Shown here piece after piece: positions 1,125 to 6,054 of a DNA stretch of 45,225 nt. Position numbers and translations under genes: made by a program. This stretch comes from Spirochaetia bacterium (GTDB lineage: Bacteria; Spirochaetota; Spirochaetia; B11-G9): the NCBI GenBank assembly GCA_029932585.1, contig JAOZPU010000002.1:1-45225 (forward strand), given 5' to 3'. The first letter of the stretch is position 1. Each line of letters begins with the position of its first letter. The notes beneath the pieces are model-generated. The model made no database searches. It was given only the letters and a program-made list of their open reading frames with translations, and was not told the DNA's origin.

Positions 1125-1607
1125 ATGGCAGATACCAATGAAAGTAAATTACAGTTGGTTACCTTTCAATTAGGCTCAGAAAGCTATGGAATAGATATTA
1201 TGATTGTAGATGGCATTGTAAGGGTTGAAGAAACAAGATCTATTCCTAATGCTCCCAATTATGTGGATGGTATTTTTAATTTACGTGGTGAAATTATTCC
1301 AATTATAAATTTACATAAACGTTTTCAAATACGGCGTGCAGAATTAAGTGAAGAAGATATGCTTTTAAGTGGCTTTATCATTATAAAAATAAGTGGTATG
1401 AAGCTGGGTATTATTATTGATAAAATATCAAGAGTAATTACAGTTGATCTTGATAAGATGCAATTACCTCCTCAGATGCTGTCCGGGATAGGTGCTGAGT
1501 ATATTCAGGGTGTTTTTACCCGGGAAGAAGAGTATTTAATATTGCTTGATATCGAAAGACTTTTTGACCCGAGAGAATTGCAGCAGCTTGGAAATTTAAG
1601 TAGTTAA
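1125..1607 (+). CDS. cheW: Chemotaxis coupling protein CheW
   Basis: CheW fold: LVTFQLGSESYGIDIMIVDGIVRVEETRSIPNAPNYVDGIFNLRGEIIPIINL. Confidence 0.93.
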   Translation: MADTNESKLQLVTFQLGSESYGIDIMIVDGIVRVEETRSIPNAPNYVDGIFNLRGEIIPIINLHKRFQIRRAELSEEDMLLSGFIIIKISGMKLGIIIDKISRVITVDLDKMQLPPQMLSGIGAEYIQGVFTREEEYLILLDIERLFDPRELQQLGNLSS

Positions 1608-1611
1608 TTTA

Positions 1612-2634
1612 ATGATTCCTGTTTATAAACCTTCAATTAAACGTAAAGAGATGGATGCTCTTCTTTCAACACTGGTCTCTGATTATAAAGAAGCATCAAA
1701 CGATAATAATGATTTTCTTAAAACCTTTGCAAAATATTTAAATTTTGAACCAGGAGTACTGGTAAGAGATTATTCTACAGCAATTTCTACAGCATTAAAA
1801 GCTATAGGTCTTGGGTCCGGTAGTAGGGTTCTTGTTTCAGCACTTTCTCCAGCTTCTTATATAAAAGAGTTTGAAAAACTATCAATTGTACCAGTATACG
1901 CAGATGTAGATATTACTTCTGGGTGTATTGGAGATGATGAGTTAAAAAGGGTTGTAGAAGCTGGAATAGATGGTATGGTCCTGTATTCGCCTAACGGTAT
2001 TAGTCCTGATTACAGCATAATTGCAGAACTTGATGTACCGGTAATTGCTGATATTACAAATACAATAGGTTGTCCTTTAGAAGATGAAGAGCTTGGGTGG
2101 ACACCGGATATTGCTATCTTACGAATGGAACTACATGATATTATAACTTCTGGTGAAGGTACTGCAGTATTTGCAGGTAATAAAAAAACTCTTTCAACTC
2201 TTCGAGGGGTTATTTCTGATCTTCCTTTGACGGCGCTTCTTCTTAACATGCATGCAGCTATGGGACTTGTACAGCTTGATTCGCTGGATTCTTTTATTGA
2301 AAAAAGAAGAGAGATTGGAGATATATTTGAAAAATCTCTTCTTAAGGGAAATCATAAATCTTTTTATCCTGTAAACGATACAAAAAGGAATTACCCCTCT
2401 TTTCATGTTGTTTTAAGCAGCCCCTTTAAAGAGGTCTCCCGTTATGCCAGAAAAAATGGAATTATGGTAGAACTTGCGTTTACAGATTCTGCAATGGCTA
2501 TTAATCCTGAGCTTTCAGAGCAATGTCCAAATTCGAATTCTTTACATATGAGAACTGCTGTTTTTCCATTATATCCAGGATTAGGCAGTCGAAATACTTT
2601 GTCAATTTCCAGATTACTTTCCACGCTGCCATAG
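1612..2634 (+). CDS. DegT/DnrJ/EryC1/StrS aminotransferase-fold protein, probably without the catalytic lysine
   Basis: Fold-type I features: LKAIGLGSGSRVLVSALSPASYIKEFEKLSIVPVYADVDI, VIADITNTIGCPLEDEELG, TSGEGTAVF. The Lys five residues before GEG is Asp. Confidence 0.75.
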   Translation: MIPVYKPSIKRKEMDALLSTLVSDYKEASNDNNDFLKTFAKYLNFEPGVLVRDYSTAISTALKAIGLGSGSRVLVSALSPASYIKEFEKLSIVPVYADVDITSGCIGDDELKRVVEAGIDGMVLYSPNGISPDYSIIAELDVPVIADITNTIGCPLEDEELGWTPDIAILRMELHDIITSGEGTAVFAGNKKTLSTLRGVISDLPLTALLLNMHAAMGLVQLDSLDSFIEKRREIGDIFEKSLLKGNHKSFYPVNDTKRNYPSFHVVLSSPFKEVSRYARKNGIMVELAFTDSAMAINPELSEQCPNSNSLHMRTAVFPLYPGLGSRNTLSISRLLSTLP

Positions 2635-2664: not shown

Positions 2665-3519
2665 ATGACTCAGAAGATATTAAAAGTTATTATTGTTGTT
2701 AATCTGCAAAAAGATGGATCCTCAGAACTTGTAAAAGAGATTAGTAGTTATTTAAAAAGCCTGGATATTGATGTTTTTGTATTTTCATACTCTGGTAAAT
2801 CTAAAATCCCTAAACTGGAAACTGCTGATTTGGTTTTTTCTCTTGGAGGAGATGGTACCGTTTTATTCTGTTCCAGAATAGTAGAAAGCATGAGTATACC
2901 TATTTTAGCGGTAAATATAGGCGATTTTGGTTTTATAACTGAAATTTCCAAAAAAGAATGGAAATCTGCTTTTATTAAATATCAGAATGGTCAGCTGGAT
3001 CTTTCCAGACGAGTTATGATAAATGTAATGGTAGAGAGACGTGGTGAGAGAGTTGCTTTTCACAAAGGATTGAATGATGCAGTAATCAGTTCCAATGGAA
3101 TTTCTAATATTATCAAATTAACTTTGCAAATAAATGAAACAAGTCTTGGTAAATATCGTGCAGATGGAATTATTGTAGCTACCCCGACAGGATCTACTGC
3201 TTATAGTATTTCTGCTGGAGGTCCAATTCTTGATCCGGAGATGGAAGCTTTAATAATTAACCCCATATGCCCTTTTACTCTTTCGAATAGACCTATTGTT
3301 GTCTCTGGTAATGAAGTTGTAACTATTACAGTTGAAGATGGGCAGCGAACAGATGTTATTCTTTCTGTGGATGGTCAGGATGCGTATCCTCTTAAGGTTG
3401 GAGATAAAATAATTGTAGAACGTTCTCAGACAAAGGCTCTTTTAATACGTTCTGATAAACGAAATTTTTATGATATTTTGCGTTCAAAGTTAAATTGGTC
3501 CGGAGGTGCAAATGCTTGA
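2665..3519 (+). CDS. nadK: NAD kinase
   Basis: LGGDGTVL motif, GDFGFITE, ADGIIVATPTGSTAYSISAGGPI. Confidence 0.95.
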   Translation: MTQKILKVIIVVNLQKDGSSELVKEISSYLKSLDIDVFVFSYSGKSKIPKLETADLVFSLGGDGTVLFCSRIVESMSIPILAVNIGDFGFITEISKKEWKSAFIKYQNGQLDLSRRVMINVMVERRGERVAFHKGLNDAVISSNGISNIIKLTLQINETSLGKYRADGIIVATPTGSTAYSISAGGPILDPEMEALIINPICPFTLSNRPIVVSGNEVVTITVEDGQRTDVILSVDGQDAYPLKVGDKIIVERSQTKALLIRSDKRNFYDILRSKLNWSGGANA

Positions 3520-5197
3520 AGAACTTACAATAAAAAACTATGCGCTTATTGAGGATCTTGTTGTAAATTTTGATTCTGGATTAAATATTTTATCTGGTGA
3601 AACCGGAGCTGGAAAATCAATTGTTATAGGTGCTATTGGATTAATTATTGGATCTAAAGGCGATTCATCTTCAATTAGAACAGGTTGTTCTGAATCTCAG
3701 GTTTCCTGTGTAATAAAAATACCAAAAGGAAATGAGGCAAATAATTGGCTTGTTTCTCATGAAATTGAACCGGAAGATGATAGAATTATAATACGAAGAG
3801 TTCTACGTCAAACAGGCAGGGGATCAATTTTTATTCAATCTGTGCCCTGCAGTAGAAAAGATTTAGAAGAATTAAGCTCTTTTATTTTTGATATGCATGG
3901 GCAGCATGCTCATCAGTCTTTGCTTAATATTGAGAATCAAAGGAAGCTTCTTGATCGATATGCAGCTGTTGAAGATGATGTTAGTAAATTAAAAAATAAT
4001 TTTCTAAAACTGTCTGAGTTGAAATCAGCACTTGAAAATATGAAAAAAACAGAAAGTGATCTTGTTATGGAAAGAGAGCTTCTTATTAAATCGATAGAGG
4101 AAATAGATAAAGCTAAATTGAAGCTTGATGAAGAAAGCCATTTAGTCAATGAAAGAAAAATTTTGATGCAGCATGATAAATTGGTGGAATATCTTGAAGT
4201 TTGTCGTAATGCTTTGTCCGAAAATTCCGGTGGTGCTTTGACTTCATTAAGAACGGGCAGATCTTCAATGGATTCTCTTTCGCAGGCAGTTGAGAGTCTT
4301 AAACCTTTATCAACCAGGCTTGATGATGCTTTTTATGAAATAGAGGATGTTGTTGAATCACTTGGTCAATTTCAGGATACAATTGATTTTACTCCTGGTA
4401 AACTTGAAGAGTGTGAAGACAGGTTGCAGCTTATTCATATTTTACAGAAAAAATATGGAAGTACAATAGGAGAAATTCTGGAATACAGGACTCAGGCAGA
4501 TGCTAAAATATTGTCTATGCAGACATTTGAAGGAGATAGAATCAGGCAGGAGAAGGAAATTTTATCTTTGGAAAGGCAGGTTGTTAAGGATGCAGGTGGA
4601 ATTTCAAAAAGAAGGATAGAATTTGGAAAAAAACTGGAAGATAAAATAAAAAATAATTTAGTTCCAATGGGAATGCCTAAAGCTGTATTTAAGGTTGATG
4701 TTTCCTTAAGGGAAAATAACAATCATAAGCCAACATGTGGTCCCACTGGTCTTGATAAAATCGAGTATCTACTGTCTCCTAATGAAGGTGAGCCTCTTAA
4801 ACCTCTTAAAAATATAGCCTCAGGAGGAGAGCTTTCAAGAATTATGTTGAGTATAAAATCTGTCCTGGCAGAGTCTGATAGTGTCCTTTCTTTAATATTT
4901 GATGAAATTGATACAGGTATTGGAGGAGAGGTTGCATTGTCTGTAGGAGATCATCTTGCGAAAATTGGGAAGCATAGACAAATTCTTTGTATAACTCACC
5001 TTGCTTCAATAGCAGTTCATGCCGATAGACATATTAAGGTTGAAAAAAATGTTGTAGATGGAAGAACATTTACAACTATAAAAAATATAAATGAAACAGA
5101 TAGGGTATCTGAAATAGCAAGAATGTTATCTGGTGATGTTTCCGGCATAGCTTCTCTGGAACATGCCCGGGAATTATTGGATAAATACAGCAGTTAA
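3512..5197 (+). CDS. recN: DNA repair protein RecN
   Basis: Walker A GETGAGKSIVIGAIG, FDMHGQHAHQSLLN, SGGELSRIMLSIK, LIFDEIDTGIGGEVA. ATG at 3512 sits 5 nt after GGAGG; overlaps the nadK stop. Confidence 0.95.
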   Translation: MLEELTIKNYALIEDLVVNFDSGLNILSGETGAGKSIVIGAIGLIIGSKGDSSSIRTGCSESQVSCVIKIPKGNEANNWLVSHEIEPEDDRIIIRRVLRQTGRGSIFIQSVPCSRKDLEELSSFIFDMHGQHAHQSLLNIENQRKLLDRYAAVEDDVSKLKNNFLKLSELKSALENMKKTESDLVMERELLIKSIEEIDKAKLKLDEESHLVNERKILMQHDKLVEYLEVCRNALSENSGGALTSLRTGRSSMDSLSQAVESLKPLSTRLDDAFYEIEDVVESLGQFQDTIDFTPGKLEECEDRLQLIHILQKKYGSTIGEILEYRTQADAKILSMQTFEGDRIRQEKEILSLERQVVKDAGGISKRRIEFGKKLEDKIKNNLVPMGMPKAVFKVDVSLRENNNHKPTCGPTGLDKIEYLLSPNEGEPLKPLKNIASGGELSRIMLSIKSVLAESDSVLSLIFDEIDTGIGGEVALSVGDHLAKIGKHRQILCITHLASIAVHADRHIKVEKNVVDGRTFTTIKNINETDRVSEIARMLSGDVSGIASLEHARELLDKYSS

Positions 5198-5241: not shown

Positions 5242-6054
5242 TTGGTGGGAAAGATAAGCACTACGGCTAGAAGTAAATACAACGAAAGAATAAAAGAGTA
5301 TAAAATTCAGGTTGATGAACTTTTAACAAAAGAAAAGAATATTTTAGGAATTTTGAAAACTGAAGATGATGATTCGCCCTACAAGCGTCTTGTTTTGGCT
5401 GATGATAGTCTTAATATGGTTTCTTATTATCTTTTAATGAACCAGCTTTCTCTTGCTTTTCTTGGTGTTAAAAATGAAAGTATGCTGAATGATGCCCGTA
5501 AACGTATTTATCAGTCTATAATCTATCTTGAGCAGGTAGTTACCGATTATATAGATGCTCCTTTTTCAGATTATGAAGAAAAAATTCAATTAATTGCCAA
5601 TTTTACTGATAAACAAAAGCTTGATATAATAAAAAAACTTGGTTTCTCTATAACCTCTGTGAAGGAAGGGTATGGTGATAATAGTAGGTGGAAATGGTCT
5701 TTTGTAGAAATTGAAGGAAGATTTGGAACAATTGCTAAGAATTTTATCAATTTAAAAACCTTTGTTGCTGGTATGGATCCAAGGGTTGAAGGGTACGAAG
5801 TTAGAACAAAGCATCTCTCTCTTGTTAAAGAATTACTAGTTGATTCTGCAAAACGGTATAGAGAAAAATATGAACTTTCAACATTTCGTATTGATGATTT
5901 TAAAAAAGCAATACAGTACCTCTCTGCGTTAAAACGGCTTCTTTCAATGCTTGGGGATACAGGTTCTATTGAGGAATTAAAAAAGAAAATTGATATATGG
6001 AAGGCAAAGATGGATGCTGACCAGCGAAAAAAAGAAACAAATCATCGAAAATAA
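5242..6054 (+). CDS. Conserved hypothetical protein, mostly helical
   Basis: Long ORF with RBS aaaggag and TTG/GTG start. No family recognised by eye. Follows recN. Confidence 0.7.
   Translation: MVGKISTTARSKYNERIKEYKIQVDELLTKEKNILGILKTEDDDSPYKRLVLADDSLNMVSYYLLMNQLSLAFLGVKNESMLNDARKRIYQSIIYLEQVVTDYIDAPFSDYEEKIQLIANFTDKQKLDIIKKLGFSITSVKEGYGDNSRWKWSFVEIEGRFGTIAKNFINLKTFVAGMDPRVEGYEVRTKHLSLVKELLVDSAKRYREKYELSTFRIDDFKKAIQYLSALKRLLSMLGDTGSIEELKKKIDIWKAKMDADQRKKETNHRK

Follow-up and report, generated by a model that had tools for sequence, protein, structure and literature searches.

Sugar aminotransferases of the DegT family (PF01041) include ArnB, PseC and Spr1654, and homologues of these proteins are routinely annotated as having the same function. 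ColD and E1 are related dehydratases in which the Schiff-base lysine is replaced by histidine. Pseudo-subunits lacking the lysine are also known among the fold-type-I proteins, LCB1 being one of them, where the fold has been kept under selection and the PLP lysine has been lost. In Spr1654, Asp170 contacts N1 of the cofactor, His173 contacts O3', Tyr84 lies on the ring, Ser194 and Thr59 contact the phosphate, and Glu205 and Gly206 make contact via water; Lys199 forms the Schiff base and His196, equivalent to His185 of ArnB, contacts the amino donor (PMC5936713). The phosphate cup is the main anchor of PMP in this enzyme (PMC5936713).

A window of 45,225 nucleotides, this being the whole stretch of spirochaete DNA that was analysed, contains a DegT homologue, referred to here as X, with the following neighbours.

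1125..1607, + strand: cheW (context), 4 bases upstream of X (PF01584, E 3.8e-32)
1612..2634, + strand: X, putative DegT-fold pseudo-aminotransferase, 340 aa (ORF; PF01041; AlphaFold2; Foldseek)
2665..3519, + strand: nadK (context), directly downstream of X (PF20143, E 9e-38)
3506..5197, + strand: recN (context), recognized by sequence inspection, its listed start overlapping nadK

The reading frame of X is uninterrupted and has an ATG start. A profile search matched it to PF01041 (DegT_DnrJ_EryC1) with 87.8 bits against a cut-off of 19.8 (E 1.1e-24), and no NCBIfam equivalog reached its own cut-off. The structure prediction that had been called for in the original prediction, itself made from the window sequence alone, returned a confident DegT/ArnB fold (AlphaFold2 pLDDT 90.6, pTM 0.90; a monomer model, from an input alignment of 44 sequences). 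The closest solved structures are those of ArnB (Foldseek E 5e-25, TM 0.88), with ColD and E1 also among the structural matches. By sequence and by fold, X is thus a homologue of the DegT enzymes. For the window gene against its closest orthologues dN/dS is approximately 0.13 to 0.15, with third codon positions carrying most of the changes, and this purifying selection indicates that X is functional. Together with the retention of the predicted fold, it makes X very probably a folded, functional protein, and not an ordinary transaminase.

The former site of the Schiff-base lysine lies in the following segment.

2122..2163, + strand: R-M-E-L-H-D-I-I-T-S-G-E-G-T, residues 171-184, with Glu173 in place of the amino-donor His (ArnB His185) and Arg171 in place of the phosphate-binding Ser (alignments; roles from PMC5936713)
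2137..2139, + strand: codon of Asp176, at the PLP-lysine position of DegT enzymes (alignments)

Residues 171-184 of X read RMELHDIITSGEGT, with Asp176 five residues ahead of Gly181. HMMER alignments place Asp176 opposite the Lys of the solved DegT enzymes, and its spacing to the Ser171 site and to GEG is that of Ser194, Lys199 and Glu205 in Spr1654 (PMC5936713). X therefore lacks the Schiff-base lysine of a DegT enzyme, as had been proposed from the Asp five residues before GEG. The original prediction had also asked whether this Asp is conserved in orthologues, and had named orthologues with Lys, or another Lys in the pocket, as grounds for doubt. It is the absence of Lys that is conserved and not the Asp itself. 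Lys is present at site 176 in 1 of 128 non-identical orthologues from the class (L195, which is without most of the other cofactor contacts), compared with 19 of 19 DegT paralogues from related genomes, while G, D, S, N, C, H and A are all common among the orthologues. Judged from these sequences, the missing Lys in X is neither a sequencing error nor a local variant. Residue 176 varies too freely to be a likely new catalytic residue. In a comparison of the sequence columns no conserved Lys was found near the old site; Lys occurs within residues 171-180 in 4 of the 128, one of these at 176, and the Lys-rich columns of the family (6, 10, 12, 37, 192, 198, 245, 249, 281, 282 and 334) do not include the old Lys site.

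By alignment and motif spacing, the Spr1654 contacts Asp170, His173, Tyr84, Ser194, Thr59, Glu205/Gly206, His196 and Lys199 correspond to positions 147, 150, 80, 171, 55, 182/183, 173 and 176 of X. Conservation percentages compare the 128 class orthologues with the 19 DegT paralogues.

1765..1782, + strand: R-D-Y-S-T-A, residues 52-57, replacing the N-S-G-T phosphate loop (family: R52 ~86%, Y54 ~73%)
1849..1851, + strand: Pro80, at the site of the ring-packing aromatic of DegT enzymes (aromatic in 0% of X orthologues, 95% of DegT paralogues)
2050..2052, + strand: Asp147, the PLP N1-binding residue in DegT enzymes (invariant, 132/132)

The S-G-T motif, suspected at the outset of being altered, is indeed replaced. 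Gly, Ala or Cys occupies its Gly site (residue 54) in 1% of X orthologues and Thr or Ser is found at 55, the equivalent of Thr59, in 13%, while Ser171, the equivalent of Ser194, is present in 34%; all three are at 100% in the DegT paralogues. X itself has neither the S-G-T and Ser phosphate contacts (RDYSTA, Arg171) nor the ring-packing aromatic (Pro80). The amino-donor His site is Glu173 in 89% of X orthologues, a residue that would oppose the binding of a glutamate side chain. With the Lys, the phosphate cup, the aromatic and the amino-donor His lost, X should not form an internal aldimine or transaminate.

The N1-binding Asp of DegT enzymes has been kept by X, as was recognized earlier in the ADITNT segment; this Asp147 is at 100% in both X orthologues and DegT paralogues, and Gly183 is also at 100% in X. 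The invariant Asp147 could mean that the pyridine ring is still bound, in which case X might hold PLP or PMP without a Schiff base in the manner of ColD or E1. The presence of these two proteins among the structural matches is in keeping with this, as are the His, Gln or Asn found at the O3' position in 66% of X orthologues and the greater retention of the phosphate loop by Lys-less members in other classes. However, the His that marks the Lys site of ColD and E1 is present at 176 in only 10 of 132 orthologues, X having Asp, and the phosphate cup on which PMP anchoring mainly depends in Spr1654 (PMC5936713) is lost in X of the class, as are the ring aromatic and, to Glu, the amino-donor His. 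Retention of the cofactor in this way appears improbable.

Other residues have become conserved in X itself.

1627..1683, + strand: X-specific N-terminal motif KPSIKRKxMDxxLxxxVSD, residues 6-24, with Arg11 invariant (family alignment)
2353..2355, + strand: His248, X-specific and conserved (88% of X, 6% of DegT)

Strong conservation in X, and not in DegT, is seen for Arg11, Met14, Arg52, Pro80, Tyr83, Glu173, Asn214, His248 and Lys281. The conservation of several polar residues would also fit an enzyme, and several of the X-specific ones are at old active-site positions. The old pocket may have gained new catalytic residues (e.g. Glu173, Asp147, Tyr54, Arg52, His248) and may support some other reaction, with a sugar nucleotide or a comparable substrate, and the strength of the purifying selection and the retention of X in a compact 1.14-Mb genome (locus L178) would agree with this. 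Yet when the phylum's Lys-less groups are compared, Asp147 and glycines are the only former cofactor contacts that they have in common; Glu173 is for the most part limited to the class, outside which the Ser of N-S-G-T persists. An enzyme of this kind is rather unlikely. The role of X seems most likely to be ligand binding or that of a scaffold, with a new PLP-independent reaction ranked second.

X orthologues are also found in other classes of Spirochaetota. In a maximum-likelihood tree of 65 rows, in which support is weak on several deep branches and some terminal branches are long, the DegT paralogues form one clade (100/100) and X of the class another (100/100), with X of the other classes between them. 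The basal X-like proteins L208, L217, L218 and L219, all from other classes, retain Lys, and one of these (L218/L228, the same gene) is followed downstream by a STAS-like gene, nadK and recN; the loss is therefore derived and ancient. A minimum of three changes in Lys state is needed on the tree, with the root and the number of losses uncertain. Lys-less X is found within cheW-X-nadK-recN in other lineages as well (L180, L237), and it is in the class that the phosphate loop has eroded furthest. The simplest reading of these sequences is that an ancestral Lys-bearing protein at the nadK-recN locus would have lost its Lys, with erosion of the phosphate loop. The phylum keeps intermediates, with Lys present, with Lys lost and the phosphate loop partly kept, and with both lost, which makes this a tractable case of the change from enzyme to pseudoenzyme.

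Outside the class the neighbours of X differ, including QueD, Rho and ribH, with none that is consistent in function, and no pathway can be inferred for X from contexts that differ in this way between classes. At L232, L234 and L238 X adjoins a 6-pyruvoyl tetrahydropterin synthase gene (QueD-like, PF01242 E ~1e-39), although the listed frames overlap at L238. In two genomes a Lys-bearing X-like gene directly follows the rho terminator gene, at L230 (7977-10382) and L231 (7422-9927).

A clear X orthologue (E < 1e-30) is present in 48 of 59 relatives, with ordinary DegT paralogues scoring far lower. In a survey of 393 Spirochaetota genomes, X is carried by nearly all members of the class, and those without it are a group that we take to be Borreliaceae-like and a few other lineages. 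All 80 loci kept in a contig scan for the X family are from Spirochaetota, a scan whose pattern was built from that family and tells little about other phyla. X at first seemed to be missing from many Treponema-like genomes, a false impression that arose because an insertion near residues 157-161 splits the matches, and an apparent Lys-less DegT paralogue (D_L097) is actually X cut by a contig end. Such insertions in X are lineage-specific: many Treponema-like genomes have theirs near residues 157-161, and L178 (2950-4191) has one in the C-terminal part.

The original prediction had placed X between cheW and nadK and outside any sugar-biosynthesis cluster, and this agrees with the comparison of 46 loci. 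In these, nadK adjoins X in 45, cheW is upstream in 35 and a recN-like gene comes next in 41; the usual order is cheW-X-nadK-recN, with X upstream of nadK, and several of the exceptions are contig ends. In most class members the cluster is accompanied by a conserved gene for a 270-aa protein downstream of recN (window 5242-6054), with Pfam matches below threshold only. A single 22-kb contig (CALFMX010000163.1; L176 and L177) has one gene twice, towards its two ends and in opposing orientations, possibly as a palindromic assembly artefact. The genome of the window has 12 CheW-domain matches, the cheW beside X being one of many.

That cheW is directly upstream of X in so many loci, and only 4 bases away in the window, could suggest a chemotaxis accessory protein working with CheW. 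Against this, seven genomes without CheW, presumably Sphaerochaetaceae, retain X, and two Borreliaceae-like genomes that were tested have five CheW matches each and no X. X is thus found without CheW, which argues against a role in chemotaxis and against a functional association with cheW in general. The apparent CheW-X fusions, frames of 504 aa (L191) and 454 aa (L197), are out-of-frame read-through in which the upstream part is cheW in the wrong frame. Such a role for X is highly doubtful.

Many genomes of the class carry further DegT genes, and X might pair with a Lys-bearing paralogue as the non-catalytic half of a heterodimer, a general precedent being LCB1 with LCB2 in serine palmitoyltransferase. 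However, X is the only DegT protein in six of the presumed Sphaerochaetaceae genomes, where it scores 94-109 bits on PF01041 and the next match no more than 47 bits; real DegT enzymes score 240-410 bits. The lack of a Lys-bearing DegT paralogue in these six argues against a DegT heterodimer and largely rules it out, making this a very remote prospect.

On balance, X is probably an ancient, orthologous and repurposed pseudo-aminotransferase that would serve as a scaffold or regulator binding a ligand and no longer as a PLP enzyme. It would descend from a Lys-bearing protein similar to sugar aminotransferases, probably near nadK-recN in an ancestor of the phylum. Lost on the way were the lysine that forms the Schiff base, the cup for the PLP phosphate, the aromatic residue on the ring and the histidine for the amino donor. 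Like DegT proteins in general, X would still form a homodimer. Its old cleft may now hold a new conserved set, Arg52, Tyr54, Tyr83, Asp147, Glu173 and Asn214, with the X-specific Arg11 and His248 elsewhere, and this set may bind a small ligand or a partner. With nadK so constant a neighbour, the first candidate would be a nucleotide or an NAD(P)-linked signal, although as evidence this is weak because nadK-recN adjacency is common in bacteria. The suggestion of a PLP-fold protein without its PLP lysine, possibly non-catalytic and with a different role, is supported by the family-wide loss of Lys, the missing contacts, the purifying selection and the absence of a sugar cluster; its non-catalytic nature we infer only, since X may have new PLP-independent chemistry.

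The cheW-X-nadK-recN order is retained at L178 in a genome of 1,139,633 bp that is apparently T. pallidum, the syphilis bacterium. That so small a genome (1.14 Mb) retains this class-wide orthologue points to a role in spirochaetes that is not redundant. We advance tentatively the possibility that PLP chemistry was given up by X early in the spirochaetes, that the protein turned into a new kind of sensor or PLP-independent enzyme, and that nearly every lineage of the class has kept it, one with a genome of T. pallidum size among them. The T. pallidum gene is apparently annotated 'spore coat polysaccharide biosynthesis'; for the X family, naming as a sugar aminotransferase is very probably wrong. 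No earlier report of the X gene or of Lys-less DegT proteins in spirochaetes was found in the open-access literature searched.

Compared with the known systems, X resembles ArnB, PseC and Spr1654 in its whole-length fold (TM 0.88 to ArnB), its N1-binding Asp and the G-x-G after the lysine site. It differs from them in having no Lys, S-G-T or ring aromatic, in the loss of Ser171 from most members and in the change of the amino-donor His to Glu, and it is a single orthologue at a fixed locus, outside a sugar cluster. Like ColD and E1, X has the DegT fold with the Schiff-base lysine replaced, but the replacement is neither His nor conserved, and the phosphate-binding residues have been lost as well. 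PLP-fold pseudo-enzymes are already known, and X adds to these a family conserved across a class in which the loss of the cofactor site is visible. X is similar to pseudo-subunits of the LCB1 type in keeping the fold under selection after losing the PLP lysine, but unlike them it is the only DegT protein in several genomes, with no Lys-bearing DegT partner there.
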